Positions 10,292 to 28,171 of a stretch of DNA of 64,000 bases are shown here, one piece after another. The DNA is taken from assembly GCF_009569385.1 (NCBI RefSeq), contig NZ_WBOF01000001.1, positions 4,751,501-4,815,500 on the forward strand, in the 5' to 3' direction. Position 1 is the first letter of the stretch; each line of letters starts with the position of its first letter. The position numbers and the translations under genes are program-made. The notes beneath the pieces were generated by a model, which did no database searches, had not been told where the DNA came from, and saw only the letters and a list, made by a program, of their open reading frames with translations. The stretch comes from Streptomyces kaniharaensis. Lineage in GTDB: Bacteria; Actinomycetota; Actinomycetes; Streptomycetales; Streptomycetaceae.

Positions 10292-11447
10292 GTGTCCTGC
10301 GCCGGAGATCCGTCGTTAGTTGTGTGTGAGCTCTTCTTCTCCTGATCTCCCGGTGCGCCGTCGTGGTCCCGCCTTGGAACCGTTGTTGCTGTCCGACGAG
10401 GAACGGGCCACGCTGACGCGGTGGGCCCGCAGAGCCTCGTCCGCCCAGGCGTTGGCTCTGCGGGCCCGGATCGTGCTGGCCTGCGACGGTCCTGATGTGC
10501 CGTCGATCGTCGGCGTGGCAAGGGAGTTGGGCATCACTGCGGACACGGTCCGCAAGTGGCGACGCCGGTTCCTCGCCGAGAGGCTGGACGGCCTGGTAGA
10601 CGAACCCCGACCGGGCCGGCCGCCCACGATCGCGGTCGACGAGATCGAGGCGGTCGTCGTGGCGACGCTGGAGGAGATCCCGAAGAACGCGACACACTGG
10701 TCCCGGAGCTCGATGGCCGCCCGCAGCGGCCTCTCGAAGTCGACCGTCGGACGGATCTGGCGGAAGTTCCAGCTCAAGCCCCACCTGGTCGGCACCTTCA
10801 AGCTGTCCACCGACCCGCTCTTCATCGAGAAGGTCCACGACGTGATCGGCCTGTACTTCGACCCGCCCGAAGGTGCGGTGGTGCTGTCGGTCGACGAGAA
10901 GTCGCAGATCCAGGCCCTCGACCGCTCCCAGCCGGTCCTGCCCATGATGCCGGGCATGCCGGAGCGTCGAACCCACGACTACGTGCGCAACGGTCTGACC
11001 ACCCTGTTCGCCGCGTTCGACACCAGCAGCGGGAAGGTCATCACTTCACTGCACCGCCGGCACCGTGCGGCGGAGTTCAAGAAGTTCCTCGTCAAGATCG
11101 ACCGCGAGGTTCCCGACGGGCTCGACATCCACCTGATCTGCGACAATTACGGCACCCACAAGACCCCGGCCATCCGTGCCTGGCTGGCGCAACATCCCCG
11201 ATTCCATATGCACTTCACCCCGACCGGGTCCTCGTGGATCAACCAGGTGGAGCGGTGGTTCGGCTTTCTCACCGACCAGATGATCCGACGTGGTGCCCAC
11301 AAGAACGTTCAGGCCCTTGAGAGGGACATCCGCGCCTGGATCAAGAACTGGAACGAGGACCCCAAACCGTTCACCTGGACCAAGACCGCCGACGAGATCC
11401 TCGACTCCCTCGCCCGATTCTGCCGACGGATCTCCGGCGCAGGACAC
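10292..11447 (+). mobile_element. Complete IS630-family insertion sequence
   Basis: The element is bounded by inverted repeats of about 20 bases (left GTGTCCTGCGCCGGAGATCC, right its complement) and flanked by TA at 10290-10291 and 11448-11449, the target duplication expected of the IS630/Tc1 group. Length is 1156 bases with one transposase gene. It appears intact and could be active. Confidence 0.85.
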
Positions 11448-11450
11448 TAG
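10326..11450 (+). CDS. IS630-family transposase, intact
   Basis: The transposase of about 374 residues has an N-terminal helix-turn-helix part (VARELGITADTVRKWRRRF) and the IS630 DDE domain. The catalytic blocks are VVLSVDEKSQIQALDRS, HLICDNYGTHKTP and SSWINQVERWFGFL. GTG at 10326 is taken as start; a TTG lies two codons upstream. The stop TAG at 11448-11450 is formed by the duplicated target TA plus the next base, so the element borrows its stop codon from the insertion site. Confidence 0.9.
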   Translation: MSSSSPDLPVRRRGPALEPLLLSDEERATLTRWARRASSAQALALRARIVLACDGPDVPSIVGVARELGITADTVRKWRRRFLAERLDGLVDEPRPGRPPTIAVDEIEAVVVATLEEIPKNATHWSRSSMAARSGLSKSTVGRIWRKFQLKPHLVGTFKLSTDPLFIEKVHDVIGLYFDPPEGAVVLSVDEKSQIQALDRSQPVLPMMPGMPERRTHDYVRNGLTTLFAAFDTSSGKVITSLHRRHRAAEFKKFLVKIDREVPDGLDIHLICDNYGTHKTPAIRAWLAQHPRFHMHFTPTGSSWINQVERWFGFLTDQMIRRGAHKNVQALERDIRAWIKNWNEDPKPFTWTKTADEILDSLARFCRRISGAGH

Positions 11451-12787: not shown

Positions 12788-13766
12788 GGCGTCCTGGCGA
12801 TTACGAGCGGAGCCAGACGACGAGCGCGGCTGCGGTAACGGTGCCGAGGTAGACGTAGCCGCGCTTGTCGAACCTGGTCGCTACTGCGCGGAAGGCCTTG
12901 AGCTTGTTGATCGCCCGTTCGACGGTGTTGCGCTTCTTGTAGCGGTCCTTGTCGAAACCGGGCGGTCGGCCGCCTGCCCTGCCACGTCGGACCCGGTTGG
13001 CGGCCTGGTCGGCTTTCTCCGGGATGACGTGTCGGATCCCGCGTCTGCGCAGGTACCGGCGGATCCAGCGGTTGCTGTAGCCCTTGTCCGCGCTGACGCT
13101 GTCGGCTTCGTGCGCGGCCTCCCGGTCGTCAGCCTCGGCACGCGGATCTTGTCCATGACCGGCTCGAACTGGGTGCAGTCGGCGCACTGTCCGGGAGTGA
13201 TGACCAGCGAGAGCACCCGGCAGCGGCCGTCCGCACTCAGGTGGATCTTGGTCGTGAACCCGCCGCGCGAGCGGCCGAGCGCCTCACCTCCCGCACCACC
13301 TCCGCCAGCCGGTCGATCAGTTCCGCCCGGACTCGAGCGACTTTGACCGCTTGACCGAAGCCCCCTTTGACGACAGGTGGCGGAGCCTGCCGGGCACCGG
13401 CGGCATGGTGGTGAGCGCGCACGGACGTCGAGTCGACCGAGACGTCCCAGTCGATTTCGCCGGCCGCGTCCGCCCCGGCCTGAATCCGCTGGAGGAGCAT
13501 CTCCCACGTCCCGTCCGCCGACCAGCGACGATGCCGCTCGTGCGCCGTCTTCCACGGGCCGTACCGCTCCGGCAGATCACGCCACTGCACCCCCGTGCGT
13601 ATCCGATACAGAACCCCGTTCACGACCTGGCGATGGTCCCGCCACCTGCCACAACGCCCGTTACTCACCGGCAGAAGCGGCTCCAGCCGCTCCCACTGGG
13701 CATCCGTCAGATCACCCCTACTCCCCATAGTCGTATCAACGACTCAACTGATCGCCAGGACACTGC
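12788..13766 (-). mobile_element. IS5-like insertion sequence, nearly complete
   Basis: The ends read GGCGTCCTGGCGAT at the left and its near-complement ATCGCCAGGACACTGCC at the right, as imperfect inverted repeats. The transposase gene inside is broken (12801-13728). A 60-base copy of its right end occurs in inverted orientation at 11448. Confidence 0.7.
12801..13728 (-). pseudogene. IS5-like transposase in three frames
   Basis: The first frame (13728 downward) gives MGSRGDLTDAQWERLEPLLP, WRDLPERYGPW and the DVSVDSTSVRAHHHAAG block with the first catalytic Asp. A second frame supplies LGRSRGGFTTKIHLSADG and a third SADKGYSNRWIRRYLRRRG and NTVERAINKLKAFRAVATR. Shifts are needed near 13290 and near 13130. 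Some IS5 elements use one programmed frameshift, but two breaks make a decayed gene (or sequencing indels) more likely. Confidence 0.75.
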
Positions 13767-14179: not shown

Positions 14180-14203
14180 ATGGCAGATCAGGCGATGTTC
14201 GCC
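14180..14203. repeat. Internal copy of IS630 end repeat
   Basis: This stretch (TGGCAGATCAGGCGATGTTC and following) matches the outer end repeats at about 20 of 24 positions and overlaps the last codons of the transposase. It is the expected original end of the element if the passenger gene were absent. Confidence 0.65.
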
Positions 14204-15321
14204 CTATTGACGACCGCGCTGAGGCGTTCGTCGGCAGCGTGCTTGTTTCGCCAGATGATGTAGCGGCGGATCATGCTTCCCTGCTCCTTGTGGCTCTGGT
14301 GGTCGGTGCCGTCGAGGGCGAAGTAGCGCAGGGCGGTGAACTGGGCTTCGATCCGGTTGAGCCAGGAGCTATTGGTCGGGGTGTAGGCGATCTCCACGTT
14401 GTTCGCCGCCGCCCAGGTCCCGACCCGCTGGCACCGCTTCGTCGTCAGGTGCGGTGAGTAGTTGTCGCAGATGATCGCAATGCGAACGTCCGCCGCGTAC
14501 AGCGAGCGCAGGTAGCGGCAGAACTCCAGGAACTTGGACCGGTTCTTGGTCTTCTTGATGTGCCCGTAGAGCTGGTCCTTGGCGAGGTCGTAGGCGGCGA
14601 ACAGGTGCCGGACGCCGTGCGGTCGGGTGTAGGTGGCCCGACGCCGGGGTCTGGGCTCGCGATCGGGGGCCTTGCCCTTGCCACCGCGTTCGGCCCACTG
14701 CCGACCGGGGTGCGGTTGGAGGTTGAGTGGCCCGAACTCGTCCAGACAGAAGACGACTTCGGGCTCACCTTTCTCGGGTATGACCTCGCCGTCGGCGATC
14801 GCGTAGAGGTGCTCGACGCGGGCCTTCTTCGCTTCGTAGTCGGGATCCTTCGAGGTCTTCCAGGTCTTCACGCGTTGAAAGGAGACGCCCTCCTCGCGGA
14901 GCAGGACCCGAAGGCCCTCATGGCTGATGTCGTCGACCACCCCCTCGGCGACCAGGAAGTCGGCCAGCTTGGCCAGGCTCCAGGTCGAAAAGGGCAGGCC
15001 GTGCTCGGCCGGCTTGGACTTGGCGATCTTCTTGATCTCCCGGCGCTCGGGCAGCGTGAAGGTCCTGGGCCGTCCGCCCTTGTATTTCGGGTAGAGCGAG
15101 TCGAAGCCGTCGGCATTGAAGTTGTGGATCACGTCGCGGACCCGGTCCGCGCTGGTGAACGTGACCTCGGCGATCTTCGCCACGGGCATGCGCTGGGCAG
15201 AGAGCAACACCATGTGGGCCCGCCGCCAGGTCACCACCGACCCAGCGCCCCGGCGGACAATCCGCAGCAGCCGTCTGCCCTCGTCGTCATCGATCTCACG
15301 GACCTGCACGCGTTCAGCCAC
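14188..15321 (-). CDS. IS630-family transposase (second type)
   Basis: The 377-residue protein has an N-terminal helix-turn-helix segment (MPVAKIAEVTFTSADRVRDVIHNF) and an IS630 DDE domain with the blocks VVFCLDEFGPLN, IAIICDNYSPHL and SSWLNRIEAQFTALRYF. It is distinct from the IS630 transposase at 10326. GTG 15321 is preferred as start. The frame is open throughout, so it may be functional. Confidence 0.85.
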   Translation of the reverse strand: MAERVQVREIDDDEGRRLLRIVRRGAGSVVTWRRAHMVLLSAQRMPVAKIAEVTFTSADRVRDVIHNFNADGFDSLYPKYKGGRPRTFTLPERREIKKIAKSKPAEHGLPFSTWSLAKLADFLVAEGVVDDISHEGLRVLLREEGVSFQRVKTWKTSKDPDYEAKKARVEHLYAIADGEVIPEKGEPEVVFCLDEFGPLNLQPHPGRQWAERGGKGKAPDREPRPRRRATYTRPHGVRHLFAAYDLAKDQLYGHIKKTKNRSKFLEFCRYLRSLYAADVRIAIICDNYSPHLTTKRCQRVGTWAAANNVEIAYTPTNSSWLNRIEAQFTALRYFALDGTDHQSHKEQGSMIRRYIIWRNKHAADERLSAVVNRANIA

Positions 15322-15404
15322 GTGATCATTCTGACCGTCCGGTGCCGCCCGGCACAGCAACCAGGCGACAGGTCACGACGGGGCGAACGTTGCCTGATGC
15401 GGCA

Positions 15405-15809
15405 CTAGTGGCTGAGGTCGTCGAGCCCGATGCGGCCGAGGTTCGGGATGAGGTCGTTGGTGACGTAGTCGCGGTAGCGGACCAGGGTGGTGGGCTTGAC
15501 GGTGAGGGCCTTGGTCTGGAGCCAGGCGGTGAGGTAGTCGGCGACGGTCTGGTTGGGGTCGGCGCTGAAGCCGCCGTCCTGGCCCTCGAGTACCCGCCGG
15601 AGGGCGGTGCGGGCGGTCTCCTCGGTGGGGAAGCCGCCGCGGCGCAGGGTGTGGCGGTTGCCGTTGGCGGGGAGGTCGACGGCGAAGGTCCAGGTGCCGT
15701 GCTCGGGGTCGGCGGAGAGGCGGGGGCAGTGGGCGCCGAGTTGCTTGTGCTGTGGGTCGCGGCAGCCGCATCGGCGGTAGACGCGGCCGTTGCGGGGTGA
15801 GGAGCGCAT
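15405..15809 (-). pseudogene. Tyrosine integrase, N-terminal remnant cut by IS630-like element
   Basis: The 134 residues equal the N-terminal arm and core-binding part of the integrase family seen at 48816-50118 (shared VYRRCGCRD, GTWTF, DPNQT, ADYLT, VKPTTLVRYRDYVT, DLIPNLG, RLDDL patterns). The frame ends at a TAG created by the insertion junction at 15405-15407, so the catalytic domain is missing. The gene begins 100 bases from the palindromic repeat at 15908, the same arrangement as at 50118/50251. Confidence 0.8.
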
Positions 15810-15929: not shown

Positions 15930-16676
15930 GCTTATCGGCGGGGGAAGGATCTGATTGGTACCCATTGTTGTGCACGTGAGCGTGAGCATTGGGCGGCTGC
16001 GGTTGGTAGCACTACGCGGGTGCAGATCAACGAGGGCCGCACCACGGCCGTACCGAAACCGGATTGGCCGAGGACTTACGCCCTCCGAACTGTTCCACGC
16101 CGGTCGGTCTTACCACGAGCCTGCGCCACCACCTGAAGCGAGAGCCTGGTGTGGCGGTGACCTATCTGTTGGTCGAGATTCGCGAACTACGCTATCGGGC
16201 AGCGCCAATCTGCTAATGCGAACCTGAACCAGGGATGGCCGCGCCTGCGGGCATTCCGCCCTGGCCGCACCCACTGGTCCCGCGTCAGCACCGCCATGTC
16301 TTCGCCTGGCCGCCCGGTCGGCCTGAGGTTGCTAGCCGGGTCACCCGCAGCGTGATGCTGCCAAGCTGGCTGACCTCAGCGCGACATGTCGCTTGAGAGT
16401 GCCCATACTTGAGAAGGAGGGCTAACGAGGAGGACGAAGTGTCGCCCAGCCTGCGGAAGATTCCCTCGGTGCTCACAATCAAACACGTGCCGTCAGGTGC
16501 ATCAGTCCTGGCACTGCGCCGGTTCATCAAAGCTTGAACAAACCTTCAGCCGAACATTTTTTGCGATCTGCTGTTGGTCGGGATTGCCGTTTCGGCTCAG
16601 AGCCACGGGGACTCTTAAGGCATGGCGCATTTTCACAGCATTTCTTCGTTTGATCTCCAGGGCAAGGATTGAACAA
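15930..16676. other. Intergenic leader of the low-GC operon
   Basis: No supported gene lies in these 747 bases. Short open frames on both strands lack family features and codon bias. Composition falls from typical high GC to mixed from about 16380 onward, which marks the left limit of the foreign segment. The promoter of the operon at 16677 must lie here; a TTGAAC at about 16534 is a possible -35, but no convincing -10 was found. Confidence 0.5.
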
Positions 16677-17693
16677 ATGCGCGCTGCAGTAGTCGTTCGC
16701 CCGGGAGGGCCAGAAGTTATAGAACTTCGAGACGTCCCCCAGGGGCCACTCGCCCCTGGTATGGCTAGAGTGCAGATAGAACGAAGTTCTGTAAACGCCG
16801 CAGACTTGTGGACTCGGCATCCAGGAATAGTCTCCTCATATCCCCATATCCCCGGATCCGACGGATGTGGTGTATTGGTAGAACTGAGGGGCGAGAGCAC
16901 CATCGAAACAGGCTCAAAAGTAGTAATTAACCCAGCACTGCAGCTCCCGACTGGTGAGCGCTCATGGTCCGATCCGTATCGGGATATCGTTGACATACTG
17001 GGATACAACTGCGCTGGCACATGTGCAGAATACTGTGATGTTCCGATCGGAAACATATTTCCAGCACCAAGCCATCTAACGATCGAGGAATCAGCAGCGA
17101 TACCGCTCACCTACCTAACCGCTTGGCGCATGCTTGCAAGAAGGGGAATGGTCGAACGTGGAGAGTACGTCCTCATATGGGGTGGATCCGGCGGTCTGGG
17201 AACTGCTGCGATCGTGCTAGCTAATTATCTTGGTGCGAATGTACTCGCGACAGCTGGAAGCGACCATGATGCTGAGCAAGTAGCGGGGCTTAAGCCGAAA
17301 GGAATAATTCGCTATGATCTCGGAGAGGTGGCAAAACAGGTAATCGATCTGATAGGGAGGAAAGTAGATCTCGTGTTCGATTCTGTGGCTGGCCCCACGT
17401 GGTCTGCGACATTGCAGTCGCTGAGGCCGGGGGGACGGGTGGTTCTCGCGGGCACAACAGCTGGCGACGTTGTGACATTTGATCTGAGCGATTTCTTCTA
17501 TAACCAGTGGGCGCTATGCGGCTGCAGGATGGGCGATGAGCGAGACTTCGAGAACATGCTGAAAGCCGTCACCGAAGGGCACCTAAAGCCAGTGGTTGGA
17601 AAGGTGTACCCGCTGTCGCAGATTTCAGAAGCGCATCAAGCAATGGAAGATGGGGGCATCGTTGGAAAGATAGTGGTGAATAATTTCGAATGA
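16677..17693 (+). CDS. MDR-superfamily alcohol/quinone dehydrogenase-like oxidoreductase
   Basis: The 338-residue protein is a medium-chain dehydrogenase/reductase: GroES-like N-terminal half (IPGSDGCGVLVE), YAEY-type block NCAGTCAEYCDVP, the IPLTYLTAWRML helix and a nucleotide site VLIWGGSGGLGTAAIVLANYLGA near residue 165. The structural-zinc cysteine cluster of classical alcohol dehydrogenases is missing, being replaced by a PTGERSWSDPYRD loop. It therefore looks closer to zinc-free reductases. ATG 16677 is preceded by AAGGA with eight bases of spacing. It is the first gene of the low-GC operon and overlaps the next gene by ATGA. The likely role is an NAD(P)H-dependent reduction of an intermediate; the substrate is unknown. 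Confidence 0.8.
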   Translation: MRAAVVVRPGGPEVIELRDVPQGPLAPGMARVQIERSSVNAADLWTRHPGIVSSYPHIPGSDGCGVLVELRGESTIETGSKVVINPALQLPTGERSWSDPYRDIVDILGYNCAGTCAEYCDVPIGNIFPAPSHLTIEESAAIPLTYLTAWRMLARRGMVERGEYVLIWGGSGGLGTAAIVLANYLGANVLATAGSDHDAEQVAGLKPKGIIRYDLGEVAKQVIDLIGRKVDLVFDSVAGPTWSATLQSLRPGGRVVLAGTTAGDVVTFDLSDFFYNQWALCGCRMGDERDFENMLKAVTEGHLKPVVGKVYPLSQISEAHQAMEDGGIVGKIVVNNFE

Positions 17694-18280
17694 GCATACA
17701 TGCGCGCCCGTTCAACCATCAGTTGGATCCCGTAGCCGCTCGAGATAACCTCGAGAGGCTCCCAATAGGCTTGTGCGATGAATTCGCACACATTGAACTC
17801 GTATGCCTGGACGTCGATGGAATATTGACAGATGGTTCAATAATATACAGCGAGAGCGGGCGAGCGCTAGTAACATTCAATGCGCGGGATGGTTTGGGAA
17901 TTGCACTCTTGCAGAGGGCTGGCGTATCAGTTGCTTTTGTGTCTGCTCTAGATTCCCCGATAGTTAGAAAACGCGCCGAAGAACTGCACATCAAAAGTGT
18001 CTGCTTGGGTGTCAACGATAAGCTCAGGTGCGTCAGAGATATGCAGCGGCATACGAGAGGAAAGATACTATTTATGGGGGATGACCTTTGGGATCTGGCA
18101 GCGATGAGAGCTTGTGACGTCGCAGCGTCTTCCTGCGACGCGGCAGTAGAGGCTCTCGCTGCTGCCGACGTGATTTCTTCCTATGGAGGCGGCCGAGGGG
18201 CTGTTCGACAGATAGCCGATATGACTCTCGAGGCCCAAGATATAGATCGCGGCTCTCTAATGGCGCGATATGATGAATGA
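17690..18280 (+). CDS. KdsC-like HAD phosphatase
   Basis: The 196-residue protein carries the KdsC-type HAD signature. DVDGILTDG (nucleophile Asp41 and Asp43) is followed by the family's NARDGLGI block, a VSALDSPIVRKRAEEL segment, DK at 110-111 and GDDLWD (130-135, metal-binding Asp pair), then GGGRGAVRQIADM near the end. KdsC enzymes remove the phosphate from KDO-8-phosphate or related sugar acids and usually form tetramers. Actinobacteria lack KDO lipopolysaccharide, so here another phosphorylated sugar-like intermediate is probable. About 35 extra N-terminal residues precede the HAD core. Start and stop codons overlap those of its neighbours, showing translational coupling. Confidence 0.85.
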   Translation: MSIHARPFNHQLDPVAARDNLERLPIGLCDEFAHIELVCLDVDGILTDGSIIYSESGRALVTFNARDGLGIALLQRAGVSVAFVSALDSPIVRKRAEELHIKSVCLGVNDKLRCVRDMQRHTRGKILFMGDDLWDLAAMRACDVAASSCDAAVEALAAADVISSYGGGRGAVRQIADMTLEAQDIDRGSLMARYDE

Positions 18281-18908
18281 CGCCATGGATTCTGGAAACA
18301 CTCGTCGTGTTTATGATCTGGCAGCGCGGGATTACGAGGAGATCTTCTTTGACGACCTCAGTGATGCGCACTGGCTTGATTCGTTCTCCAGTTCTCTTGA
18401 AGCACCGTCCTTGATCCTAGATGTGGGATGTGGTCCTGGAAACTTCTCTAACTATCTTGGTAGTAGAGGACATTGTCCTGTTGGCATCGACATCTCATTC
18501 GAAATGCTATCCGTAGGACGACAGCGCAGAGGTGTTCATCATCCAATGGTTCAGGGGACCATGGAGCGACTTCCCTTCAGGTCAGGCATATTTGATGGCC
18601 TATTGATTGCCTACTCGCTGCTGCACATACCCAAGAAGAATGTCCAGTCGGTTCTGCAGGAACTCAGGAGGGTTATCAAGGCCAACGGGAGGAGTCTTCT
18701 CCTTCTGAAAGAAGGGGATGACGAGAGAGTGATAGCTGCGAGTCTCGTTGCGGGTGAATTCCTGGTCGCGTCGATGTGGCGAGTGCCGGAGCTCCAGCCT
18801 CTTCTCGAACTCGCAGGGTGGAATCTTATCTCTGCAGAACATGGTGAGCCTGCTAGGCAGGAAGAGATCCAGGAACCGAAGTTGGCTCTTACCCTGATAG
18901 CAGCGTGA
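18270..18908 (+). CDS. Class I SAM-dependent methyltransferase
   Basis: The 212-residue protein has motif I SLILDVGCGPGNFSNYL (about residues 48-64), the acidic PVGIDIS strand end (motif II) and FDGLLIAYSLLHI (post II/motif III), so it is a small class I methyltransferase of the Methyltransf_11/25 kind. No membrane segment is seen. Start may be either of the tandem ATGs at 18270 and 18273, both inside the end of the phosphatase gene. The acceptor atom (O, N or C) cannot be deduced. It is a tailoring candidate in the operon. Confidence 0.85.
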   Translation: MMNDAMDSGNTRRVYDLAARDYEEIFFDDLSDAHWLDSFSSSLEAPSLILDVGCGPGNFSNYLGSRGHCPVGIDISFEMLSVGRQRRGVHHPMVQGTMERLPFRSGIFDGLLIAYSLLHIPKKNVQSVLQELRRVIKANGRSLLLLKEGDDERVIAASLVAGEFLVASMWRVPELQPLLELAGWNLISAEHGEPARQEEIQEPKLALTLIAA

Positions 18909-18957
18909 ATGGGGCTTGGCGTAACCGGGATCTGGCGCCTGTGAGGTTTTAGCCAAA

Positions 18958-20013
18958 ATGACTGTAGCTCTTCGTACTGTGCGTGGTCTCCACTATCACC
19001 TGGACGGCTGTCCAACTGGCACACAGGTCCCTGCCCAAATAAGGGGCATAGTGGTAAAGAAATGGAGTAAGGGCGACTCCACTGGACGCTGGGTACTGGA
19101 ACTCACCGGCCGCGCGAATGTTATTGTCAACCGTCGTGATCCAGCGGTTGATATATCTCAGATGCAGGTAGGACGGCGAGTTGAGGTGACAGGGTCGGCT
19201 GTGATCTCGTCCCGTCAACAGTTGGTACTTTATCCGGACAGTATGGAGGTCTTGCCGGCAGGCTCGCTAGGGCAGCACTGGCCTGAAAAACCAGAGGTGC
19301 CAAGCCATATCTTGACAAGCTTCCTCTTAGCACGTCTCCGCAGTATCGCAACAGCATCAGCAACCAAGCTCGGCTACCGCGAGTTCGAACCGTATTACAT
19401 ATCGACCCCGCTGCAGAATAGGGACTCAGGGCCAGTGAGTGTTTCATTCGAAGGCTGGGGATCCTCACTGAGTCTGGCAATCTCGCCCGCGCCACAGCTC
19501 CTTCAAACTCTCCTTGAGACCGGAGAGCATCGGGTATTCGCAGTCGGCAGGTGTTTCTCATCGGCATATCGCGATGGTTTTTCCAGTGCAGAGGAACTGA
19601 CCCTAGTGGCAAGACAAATTGATACCTCAATTGAAGAGGTGATCTGTTTTTCTGAGACGATACTCCGGGACCTGCTTCAGGAGGGGGACACGGCGGTGTC
19701 GCGTGTCACATGGGGCGCAGATCAGTGGCCTCAAGTACCAGTTGCTGCAATGCCAAGCAAGGAGATTGACACGCCGCGCATTGAGTGGCTGCCTGAGGCC
19801 AGAGAAGACGATGGTATACATCACGCTATATTCCGTATAATTTATCCCCAAGGTATTGTTGTCGCAGAGGGCGATGTCACTGAGTGGTCATCACACGTCC
19901 GGATAGGCGGTGTCACAGTTCACCTGGAACGTCTCGTAGCACTACTGTCCCCGACGCGACTGGCGGCTATCAGAGACCTCGGCGCCCCCACGGAACGGTT
20001 GCGAAGAGCATGA
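18958..20013 (+). CDS. Degenerate Asp/Asn-tRNA synthetase-like protein
   Basis: The 351-residue protein follows the class IIb synthetase plan. An N-terminal OB-fold part covers about residues 5-100. Motif 1 is RSIATASATKLGYREFEPYYISTP (128-151), and ISPAPQLLQTLLETGEHRVFAVGRCF corresponds to the SPQLYKQ/motif 2 region. Motif 3 is GGVTVHLERLVAL (318-330, Arg325). In motif 2 the usual FRAE is replaced by FSSAYRD, so the ATP-contacting Arg-Glu pair is altered, and the protein is shorter than real AspRS/AsnRS (about 430-590). It is therefore probably not a housekeeping synthetase but a paralogue that activates or transfers an amino acid, or binds tRNA. Leu124 is a TTA codon. It ends with an ATGA overlap into the DIT1/PvcA gene. 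Confidence 0.75.
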   Translation: MTVALRTVRGLHYHLDGCPTGTQVPAQIRGIVVKKWSKGDSTGRWVLELTGRANVIVNRRDPAVDISQMQVGRRVEVTGSAVISSRQQLVLYPDSMEVLPAGSLGQHWPEKPEVPSHILTSFLLARLRSIATASATKLGYREFEPYYISTPLQNRDSGPVSVSFEGWGSSLSLAISPAPQLLQTLLETGEHRVFAVGRCFSSAYRDGFSSAEELTLVARQIDTSIEEVICFSETILRDLLQEGDTAVSRVTWGADQWPQVPVAAMPSKEIDTPRIEWLPEAREDDGIHHAIFRIIYPQGIVVAEGDVTEWSSHVRIGGVTVHLERLVALLSPTRLAAIRDLGAPTERLRRA

Positions 20014-21389
20014 CTGGGCACTTGACGAAATTGACAAGGTCTGGGAATACAGTCCTGGAGGAGAATTTTTCTGGTTTGGCTAAAGGAACGCGCCTTCGGC
20101 CTACGCGCTCAGACTCCTACGACTTCGCGAGTTGCATGTTTTTCTCGCACCTTGGATACGAGAACGAGCAGATCAGCCCTGGAGAGCGCCGCCTCAGGCC
20201 GATTTCCGAATCCGAGGTAAGAAAAGAACTATTGTCGGCCGTGAGGTCGCATGAGGGCGACACTGGATTGAGTGCAAATCCACCTCGCCCGCGGACCATG
20301 AAACACGTTAACGTGCCTGAGAGTGTGACTGCAGACTATTTGGGCTGGGCTGAGACGGCGCTTGTCGATTATGGTCCTTTGGAAGATATAGCGAAGAGCG
20401 ATCTTGACAGGACAGAAAAGATCCTGAGCGTGCTAGCTGACCCGCTCTTAGGGAACACACAGAATCGGGAGAACGTCGATTCAGTTGTGATTCACCAGCG
20501 GCTCGCTATGGCGTCGGATGGGCGCTTGCCACTGTACCTGGCCCTGCCGGCCTTCCCGTTCAAGGATCAGGGGGCATTCAATACCGACTGTAGCGCGGAC
20601 CAGCCAGACTTTGGAGAGGTGGCGCTATTAGTGAGAATGCATTGCCTGGCTCTCGCTTTGTCGCGCCTGTACGCTGAGGAGGTCCAGTGGATAATTCTCT
20701 CGGATGGGCCACTATATGCCCCCTTCTTTGGTTTGGATTCTGGCGTTGCCCAACGATATCTGCAGCGAATTCGATCCTTCCGAGACAACCTTAACCTTGG
20801 CTCTACTATCAATGTGCTATCTCTTCTGGATCTGGTGGCGAAGACTCAATATTTGTACGGGGGAAAGTCTGGCGTGGAGGCATTCGCCAAGTACTCTGCC
20901 GACATTCGCCATGCGCTTGAGTCTGTAAGCAGAAAAGATAGAGAGGTTGATGACGCGCTCCAAGTACTAGCAGGGGACATGATGTGGAACTTGGACACGC
21001 GAAGGTACGAGCAATCAATGACGCATCAAGAACTCTGGAGAATCATAAGGAGAAAGGGGCGCTCGCCGCTCCGTACCGAAGTATCTGAACAATCTCGAGA
21101 AACGACACTGCGGTACGTGTCATGCAACATTGCCCTCCGGTTGGCCCGTGTGATTGAATGTCAGTTCCCGCTTGCTATCCGGGCTACGTCCCATGCTAAG
21201 AGGGGGCAGGTGGCCATTCCCAGAATTGGCCATGTGGCGCCGTGGAATGGAGTGGCTGTGCGGCGTCGTCGGGGGCGGGGATGGGCGGACCTTGGAAGTG
21301 TGAGAATTCACCGCGCTTGGCAGCAGGGGGCAGATGTTAGCGTTCACCTGGAAGGCTGTGGAGATGCCTTCTATTACGAAGTTCCATAG
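20010..21389 (+). CDS. DIT1/PvcA-family (isocyanide synthase-like) protein
   Basis: The 459-residue protein matches the DIT1/PvcA family: LPLYLALPAFPFKDQ (Lys185), PDFGEVALL (199-207), the IILSDGPLYAPFFG strand (229-241) and the C-terminal HVAPWNGVAVR block. Family members such as PvcA and IsnA convert an amino acid amine to an isocyanide with ribulose 5-phosphate; Dit1 makes a formyl-tyrosine precursor. Deviations include PWNG where many members have PWH, and about 90 extra N-terminal residues. ATG 20010 overlaps the previous stop (ATGA). Codons 147 and 207 are TTA, so translation would need the bldA tRNA in a streptomycete. No 2-oxoglutarate oxygenase (PvcB partner) is present, so the product probably differs from known isonitriles. 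Confidence 0.8.
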   Translation: MTGHLTKLTRSGNTVLEENFSGLAKGTRLRPTRSDSYDFASCMFFSHLGYENEQISPGERRLRPISESEVRKELLSAVRSHEGDTGLSANPPRPRTMKHVNVPESVTADYLGWAETALVDYGPLEDIAKSDLDRTEKILSVLADPLLGNTQNRENVDSVVIHQRLAMASDGRLPLYLALPAFPFKDQGAFNTDCSADQPDFGEVALLVRMHCLALALSRLYAEEVQWIILSDGPLYAPFFGLDSGVAQRYLQRIRSFRDNLNLGSTINVLSLLDLVAKTQYLYGGKSGVEAFAKYSADIRHALESVSRKDREVDDALQVLAGDMMWNLDTRRYEQSMTHQELWRIIRRKGRSPLRTEVSEQSRETTLRYVSCNIALRLARVIECQFPLAIRATSHAKRGQVAIPRIGHVAPWNGVAVRRRRGRGWADLGSVRIHRAWQQGADVSVHLEGCGDAFYYEVP

Positions 21390-21460
21390 ATTCTTATGGT
21401 GGCCGCCGTCTTCTCGCCTGGGATCACTGTGTGCTGGGCGTGTGTCGCCTCAAGCGGTGG

Positions 21461-26831: not shown

Positions 26832-28112
26832 CTACCAGCGGTGGGGGATCTGTCCGTTGAGGCGGAGTTGTTCGACGAGGTAGCGGGTGAGGGCTTCGCC
26901 TGCTTTAGCGAGTTCGCGGATGTCCGGGTGGAAGTAGCGCTGGGTGGTGGTGATTTCCTTGTGGCCGGCGATCTGTTGAAGGATGTGGAGCGGGATCCCG
27001 GCGTCGGCCATCCAGGTCAGGCCGGTGTGGCGCAGGTCGTGGCGGCGCAGGTGTTCGTAGCCGAGGTCGTGGGTGACGTCGTCCCACTGGGTGGCGTCAC
27101 GTAGGACGGCGGTGCTGATGCGGCCGCCGCGGGGGCCGGTGTAGAGGCGGGCGTCGGGGTCGCCGCGGGCGGCTTGGAGGCGTCGGATGATCTGCGGGCG
27201 TAGCGGTTCGATGATCGGGATGAAGCGGGCTTCCTTGCCCTTGGTGTGTTTGTCGACGAGGCCGCCGGGTGCGGGGGTGGTCTGCCGGCGGCAGGTCAGG
27301 AGCCAGTTGGTGGTGTCGATGTCGCGGGCCCGGACTCCGGAGACCTCTCCGATGCGAGTGGCGGTGCAGGCACCGTGGATGACGACGTCGCCCCAGCCTC
27401 GGTAGTGGTTGTAGGAGGCGTCGACCAGGGCGGCGGCGAGTTTGGTGAGGGCGTCCCAGTCGCGCAGGGCGAGGGCTCGGGGGTCCAGCAGTTCGTCCTC
27501 CGCCTGTTGGTATGCGCTCTGCCATCCGGTGACGCGGGCGGGTGCGCGTTCGATGAGGCCGTCCACGGCGGCCTGTTCGAGGGTGCGGAAGAGCATGGCG
27601 AGGGTGTTCTTGATGGTGGAGCGGCTGCAGCCCTCTGGGATCCAGCTGTCGACAGCATTGGCGATCGTGCCGGTGGTGACCAGGCGGATGGGGAGGTGTC
27701 CGAGGTCGGGCTCGATTCGGTGGTGCCATCCGGCGAGGTAGGGGACGTGGGTCGTGGTCTCAAGGCCGGCGAGGATGATCGGGAGGCGGAGTTCGACGTA
27801 CTCGGCCAGGGGCATCGACGCCAGGGAGGGGAGTACGGGGCTGCCGGTGGCGTCGGCGAGGATGGTCAGCCATTGGGTGACCAGTGCCGGGTCGAGCCCG
27901 TTGTGGACAGTCTCGGCCAGGAAGGTGGCCCACGCGTGTGTCTGGGCGGGGCTGACGGTGACGGGTGTCCGGAGCGCTGGGTCGATGCCGGTGGCCGGGG
28001 CGGTGCGTGCGGTGCGGTGGCGGGGCCGGCGGGTGATGAGAGGGGCCGGCGCAGGGGTGGTGGCCGCCCTCGCTGGTTCTGAAGAATTCGCGAAAGGTGT
28101 TGGCGTGCTCAT
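26832..28112 (-). CDS. Tyrosine integrase, complete
   Basis: The roughly 426-residue site-specific recombinase has an N-terminal SAM-like core-binding part and a catalytic domain with the full set of active residues: Arg in ACTATRIGEVSG, Lys in HTKGKEARFIP, His-Arg in RRHDLRHTGLTWM, His in QQIAGHKEITT and Tyr in QRYFHPD. ATG 28112 (MSTPTPF) is preferred over 28157. The gene ends 520 bases from the tRNA-Pro repeat, as expected for an element that integrates into that tRNA. It differs from the VYRRCGC-type integrase remnants elsewhere in the window. Confidence 0.9.
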   Translation of the reverse strand: MSTPTPFANSSEPARAATTPAPAPLITRRPRHRTARTAPATGIDPALRTPVTVSPAQTHAWATFLAETVHNGLDPALVTQWLTILADATGSPVLPSLASMPLAEYVELRLPIILAGLETTTHVPYLAGWHHRIEPDLGHLPIRLVTTGTIANAVDSWIPEGCSRSTIKNTLAMLFRTLEQAAVDGLIERAPARVTGWQSAYQQAEDELLDPRALALRDWDALTKLAAALVDASYNHYRGWGDVVIHGACTATRIGEVSGVRARDIDTTNWLLTCRRQTTPAPGGLVDKHTKGKEARFIPIIEPLRPQIIRRLQAARGDPDARLYTGPRGGRISTAVLRDATQWDDVTHDLGYEHLRRHDLRHTGLTWMADAGIPLHILQQIAGHKEITTTQRYFHPDIRELAKAGEALTRYLVEQLRLNGQIPHRW

Positions 28113-28171
28113 ATGCCACGGTCGCCCCGTACATCCTTGACTGATTGATGCCGTCATGGTGTCATTGCTTC

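Follow-up and report, generated by a model that had tools for sequence, protein, structure and literature searches.

What could a class II synthetase-like protein with a rewritten motif 2 do inside a biosynthetic-looking operon? The question is raised by a gene at 18958-20013 on the forward strand of the 64,000-nucleotide stretch of Streptomyces kaniharaensis DNA analysed here (the window), the 351-residue product of which, denoted P0001, is likely a degenerate paralogue of the class IIb aminoacyl-tRNA synthetases. The reading frame is intact, with its ATG start at 18958 and its stop codon at 20011-20013, and it is open throughout, the other reading frames across the gene containing 9-19 stops each. 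The original prediction had considered three functions for this protein, namely a ligase, a transferase or a non-catalytic binder. The sequence segments it was built on are all present, with STP at residues 149-151, SPAPQLLQTLL at 176-186, GRCFSSAYRD at 197-206 and GGVTVHLERL, including Arg325, at 317-326.

P0001 does not match any Pfam family above its cut-off, and no match is found in NCBIfam, PHROGs, PADLOC or the PDB sequences. The similarity to the Pfam family tRNA-synt_2 (PF00152, E 0.31) amounts to 10.5 bits and stays below the gathering score of 25. A relationship becomes visible upon hhalign comparison with a profile that pools 43 class IIb sequences (17 AspRS, 23 AsnRS, 2 LysRS and 1 EpmA-like), in which residues 25-242, which extend from the OB-like N-terminal part across motif 2, align with a score of 44.6 (Prob 74, E 2.7e-5). 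A second, weak match (score 21.7) places residues 317-340 on motif 3, collinear with the first. With the same profile the best of 200 shuffles scores 25.8 and the reversed P0001 sequence 17.7. A seven-sequence set yields 34.1 for P0001 versus 21.7 for the best of 50 shuffles. Profiles of single families, each compared with 40 shuffles, give 28.9 versus 26.9 for AspRS (a profile leaving out 12 of 29 loci, which the pattern had missed) and 19.8 versus 23.4 for AsnRS, both weak, as well as 22.7 versus 22.5 for LysRS, and with a five-sequence AsnRS alignment the score of 18.5 is not significant. Because the support comes from the pooled profile and from the order of the motifs, with the smaller and single-family profiles being weaker, descent of P0001 from the AspRS/AsnRS/LysRS lineage is considered likely and is not put more firmly here. 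At this strength the results support the original assignment of a class II synthetase paralogue, altered in motif 2 and encoded in a biosynthetic-looking operon.

The catalytic domain was compared with a reference alignment of 17 viral-contig sequences of AspRS and AsnRS. Fragmented rows gave a poorer alignment and were left out, and a full-length alignment, in which motif 1 was misaligned, was not folded. P0001, the single known sequence of its kind, retains 12 of the 28 near-invariant reference columns, namely Arg128, Thr150, Pro151, Leu173, Gln180, Phe200, Glu213, Pro273, Gly305, Gly318, His322 and Arg325. Motif 1 (residues 118-151, 19309-19410, forward strand), a helix followed by a strand ending in STP, keeps Arg128, Thr150 and Pro151. 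In motif 2 (residues 193-221, 19534-19620, forward strand) Phe200 and Glu213 are kept, whereas the arginine and the glutamate found in 17/17 references are replaced by Ser201 and Ala203. Following the FRxE segment, the stacking phenylalanine has become Leu214 and a further glutamate Gln220. The spacing of the motif is the same as in AsnRS although the residues differ, and the change is therefore a replacement and not a frameshift. The replacement of FRAE that had been predicted is thus present, yet the loss is wider and extends to the active-site strands, where an aspartate, a glutamate and an arginine of the references correspond to Arg293, Val301 and Thr308. A reference proline is found as Val321, and further near-invariant columns fall in gaps.

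Motif 3 survives as a remnant (residues 317-331, 19906-19950, forward strand). Its arginine, present in 17/17 references, is kept as Arg325, but the two reference glycines of GxGxG lie in a gap, so that the motif, expected to be intact, is retained in part. The helical segment that connects the last strands with motif 3 in the references is missing from P0001, and the C-terminus follows soon after motif 3. In AspRS the lost positions serve in the binding of ATP, of magnesium or of the amino acid. Judged from the alignment, P0001 seems to have kept the fold and to have lost most ATP- and amino-acid-binding positions. A complete canonical AsnRS active site, named beforehand as the finding that would speak against the paralogue proposal, is not found, most ATP-site positions being changed. 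Among the three functions originally considered, an ordinary ATP-dependent ligase appears the least likely, because the residues of the ATP site are lost.

N-terminal to the catalytic domain lies a putative OB-like region of the anticodon-binding type (residues 25-100, 19030-19257, forward strand), which is part of the full-length hhalign match. In that match the OB domain is paired with about 100 residues of the N-terminus; scored separately, they reach 20.5, which is not significant. In OB domains a conserved glutamine and a phenylalanine have an anticodon role. In P0001, by our own reading of the hhalign alignment, the glutamine is replaced by Asn54 and the phenylalanine falls on Gly43 or Trp45.

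Single-sequence AlphaFold2 prediction of P0001 is uninformative (pLDDT 35), and the OB region is without a confident model. A model of residues 105-351 derived from the synthetase alignment is of low confidence (pLDDT 61, pTM 0.58). With this modelled catalytic domain Foldseek retrieves an archaeal asparagine synthetase A first (3reu, E 1e-6), followed by LysRS and AspRS. Superposition with VIA-align results in a tie, with Z values of 12-13 for AspRS, AsnRS and AsnA alike (4j15_B: Z 13.1, rmsd 4.4, 191 aligned; 3rl6_B: Z 12.9, rmsd 5.3, 197 aligned). Since the rows of the underlying alignment were synthetases, the model is no independent proof of the fold; it shows that a synthetase fold can be built for the sequence and nothing beyond that.

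The gene of P0001 is the fourth of five co-oriented genes between 16677 and 21389. Three of the four junctions overlap and the remaining gap measures 49 bases. The P0001 stop codon and the start codon of the following gene share the sequence ATGA at 20010-20013. The whole operon lies within an AT-rich island (16500-21400), the GC content of which is mostly 0.50-0.58 versus 0.59-0.72 around it. GC3 is 0.50-0.59 in the operon genes (0.53 for P0001) and 0.83-0.91 in five genes elsewhere in the window, a transposase and an integrase gene among them. To the left of the island two DDE_3 transposases (10320-11450 and 14188-15360) and pieces of an IS4/5-type transposase (12801-13728) are located, and the island is flanked by a short piece of a phage integrase N-terminus (15405-15809) on the one side and by an integrase gene (26832-28157) on the other. 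In view of the unusual composition and the flanking transposase and integrase genes, the operon is most simply explained as a horizontally acquired island. Having retained its framework while nearly all ATP-handling residues disappeared, and being encoded in this foreign cluster, P0001 probably serves a new purpose. A search of the window finds no tRNA gene, and the surroundings of the operon have no Rfam match.

The operon, read on the forward strand, opens with P0003 (16677-17693, 338 residues), a quinone-oxidoreductase-like MDR protein matching ADH_zinc_N with E 1.1e-21 in a longer frame from 16503. It is followed by P0004 (17690-18280, 196 residues), a KdsC-like HAD phosphatase that scores 115.9 bits with TIGR01670 (cut-off 106.95) and matches KdsC structures with E 2.3e-29, well within the KdsC family. 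Plasmid-borne HAD relatives of P0004 are of the KdsC type in the 3 of 27 records that were inspected (H2, H14 and H7); two of them belong to polysaccharide loci, next to kdsA and kdsB, and the third adjoins lptC, lptA and lptB. P0005 (18270-18908, 212 residues) is a SAM-dependent methyltransferase (Methyltransf_25, E 7.4e-19). It is also similar to part of the PADLOC model mads_2 (E 1.3e-12), which most likely reflects the shared methyltransferase fold only.

Downstream of P0001 the operon ends with P0002 (20010-21389, 459 residues), a divergent member of the DIT1/PvcA family, which is of the isonitrile synthase type (PF05141, E 4.8e-16 in a longer frame from 19884). In this frame it obtains 59.5 bits, above the gathering score of 26.4, while its score of 15.1 is below the NCBIfam PvcA equivalog cut-off of 600. 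Ordinary full-length DIT1/PvcA members reach about 250 bits in the same search that gives 61 bits for P0002. An isonitrile might or might not be the product of P0002; the Dit1 protein of yeast is reported not to act as an isocyanide synthase (PMC7345447). In a comparison of P0002 with standard DIT1 proteins just 5 of 30 loci passed the pattern, and no conclusion is drawn from it. The S. kaniharaensis genome also carries an ordinary DIT1/PvcA-family gene of 252 bits (contig C1:5077505-5078242).

Searches for relatives return P0001 itself in its own genome (1/1) and in its genus (1 of 70 genomes). Within the family 2 of 394 genomes give a match, one being P0001 and the other a weak match (G021, E 0.005) that was set aside, as its frame (L002) looks like an unused GC-rich frame. 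No relative is found in 392 genomes of another genus of the same family (that of G300), a search that ran without a positive control and shared some genomes with the family search. Likewise, none of 7 pattern matches in viral contigs and none of 27 in genome contigs is a relative of P0001, and plasmids and phages yield none; relatives of moderate divergence would escape these contig scans, which depend on exact matches of eight residues, and absence is therefore unproved. A second standalone class II paralogue is encoded in the same genome (297 residues, L042:1504-2394, contig C4 near 162000). It is EpmA-like, reaches 83 bits with TIGR00462 versus a cut-off of 287, has intact-looking motifs 2 (CFRPE) and 3 and is encoded directly upstream of a TauD-type dioxygenase gene.

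At E 1e-5, a search of 396 genomes from the phylum with P0002 retrieves only P0002 itself. Its nearest relatives found share about 20-25% identity and come from alphaproteobacteria, with weak relatives in Microvirga, Devosia, Tropicimonas and Consotaella that have other gene surroundings. Six loci (L034, L053, L054, L055, L035 and L036; 1,019 ORFs) contain no ORF resembling P0001, P0003, P0004 or P0005. The Microvirga, Devosia and Consotaella loci (L034:9626-12871, L053 and L055) each carry two divergent DIT1/PvcA-family copies, near which a DctP-type solute-binding gene (tested in L053 and L055) and a ROK-family gene (tested in L034 and L055) are located; the divergent genes of these loci possibly have an uptake-linked use. 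Literature searches confined to an open-access library list no paper that connects an AspRS/AsnRS-like paralogue to a DIT1/PvcA gene.

P0001 shares with AspRS, AsnRS and LysRS the order of (putative) OB-like region, motif 1, motif 2 and motif 3 as well as the Thr-Pro end of motif 1, Gln180, Glu213 and Arg325, while it differs from them in its replaced ATP- and amino-acid-binding positions, its shorter chain and the missing helical segment before motif 3. AlaRS belongs to another class II subgroup. According to the part of the source consulted, the truncated AlaRS-like AcmF lacks most key ATP-binding residues and transfers alanine from Ala-tRNA to a natural product, ascamycin, and SbzA, an IleRS copy, does likewise with isoleucine (PMC12945691). 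P0001 resembles AcmF as described there in being a shortened synthetase paralogue that lacks most residues of the ATP site and is encoded in a biosynthetic cluster of an actinomycete, which would be a likeness of mechanism and not of descent. In contrast to the AcmF cluster, which by the same account harbors a second AlaRS (AcmD), the P0001 operon has no second copy, and P0001 belongs to class IIb and not to the AlaRS lineage.

SlgZ, an asparaginyl-tRNA synthetase-like protein, is described in the available part of its source as acting with the methyltransferase SlgM in streptolydigin tetramate biosynthesis (PMC5357945). By this description P0001 can be likened to it as an AsnRS-like protein beside a methyltransferase gene in Streptomyces; the SlgZ pathway makes a tetramic acid, and in the part of the account consulted no DIT1/PvcA-type gene is mentioned, unlike the P0001 operon. 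AS-A consists of an AspRS core that activates Asp with ATP and, in the section of the source consulted, is described as devoid of a tRNA-binding domain (PMC9437257). P0001 would resemble AS-A and archaeal AsnA, the top Foldseek match of its model, as a class II core of the AspRS/AsnRS lineage outside translation, but its ATP site is gone, as judged against AspRS and AsnRS rows with no AS-A row among them, and a putative OB-like region is present. HisZ is described in the same section as a HisRS paralogue without adenylation activity (PMC9437257); it is of the HisRS lineage with HisG as its partner, whereas P0001 is of the class IIb lineage.

Weighing these comparisons, we favour P0001 as an ATP-independent, aminoacyl-tRNA-dependent transferase, with a probability of roughly one in three; the tRNA binding, the transfer chemistry and the substrate are all putative. 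The host's own synthetase would charge a tRNA with an amino acid of the Asp, Asn or Lys type, and P0001 would take the amino acid from the charged tRNA without ATP and attach it to a small-molecule intermediate that the other operon enzymes supply, as AcmF does with Ala-tRNA. This reading is the first choice because the loss of the ATP site argues against an AS-A-like action and because the OB-like region mildly favours contact with tRNA. It is consistent with the loss of ATP- and amino-acid-site positions next to retained structural positions, Arg325 and the N-terminal OB-aligned region, and with an overlapping operon that encodes a DIT1/PvcA-family protein, a methyltransferase, a KdsC-like phosphatase and a reductase. 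Counted against it are the OB region, which by itself is not significant and has its Gln and Phe changed, and the model pLDDT of 61.

The same loss of nearly all catalytic positions with structural ones staying would also suit a non-catalytic subunit, whose class II fold would scaffold or regulate the DIT1/PvcA-like protein or the KdsC-like phosphatase. The overlap of the P0001 stop with the DIT1-like start and the precedent of HisZ speak for such a role, but it would leave the OB-like region unexplained, and to our knowledge no DIT1/PvcA protein requires a synthetase-like partner. We regard this reading as a close rival of the transferase, of somewhat lower probability. An AsnA-like, perhaps SlgZ-like, ATP-dependent amide ligase would need an ATP site rebuilt, for example with Arg205 of FSSAYRD and Arg325. 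The top Foldseek match to asparagine synthetase A and the adjoining methyltransferase gene, reminiscent of SlgZ and SlgM, point in this direction, yet the fold match is a consequence of the synthetases in the model alignment, VIA-align ties AsnA with AspRS and AsnRS, and other residues stand in for the motif 2 Arg and Glu, for the stacking Phe and for the conserved Asp, Glu and Arg on the strands of the active site. We consider a ligase unlikely, though it is again a close rival. P0001 might instead be a captured paralogue that is losing its function and is irrelevant to the pathway, as the heavy loss of conserved positions, the lack of any relative in the searches and an island bordered by insertion sequences and integrase genes could indicate. 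Decay is nevertheless improbable in view of the intact frame, a codon composition equal to that of the four neighbours, the overlap with the next gene and the AsnRS-like spacing of motif 2. That the motifs are coincidental and P0001 is not synthetase-related agrees with the missing database matches, but a profile score above the shuffle maximum and a motif 3 in the right order render this explanation very hard to sustain.

Enzymes of natural-product clusters derived from synthetases are few. SbzA (IleRS) and AcmF (AlaRS), two with a described mechanism, represent other lineages (PMC12945691). A dismantled ATP site in a protein of the AspRS/AsnRS/LysRS lineage, encoded next to a gene of the DIT1/PvcA type, would amount to a novel combination and to a five-gene pathway that is compact and testable; it would also offer a direct case of how a class II core behaves after loss of its ATP site. 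Tentatively, the class IIb fold may act here as an ATP-free aminoacyl-tRNA-dependent transferase working together with the divergent DIT1/PvcA enzyme. If this were true, tRNA-derived amino acids and isonitrile-type chemistry would be joined in one operon.
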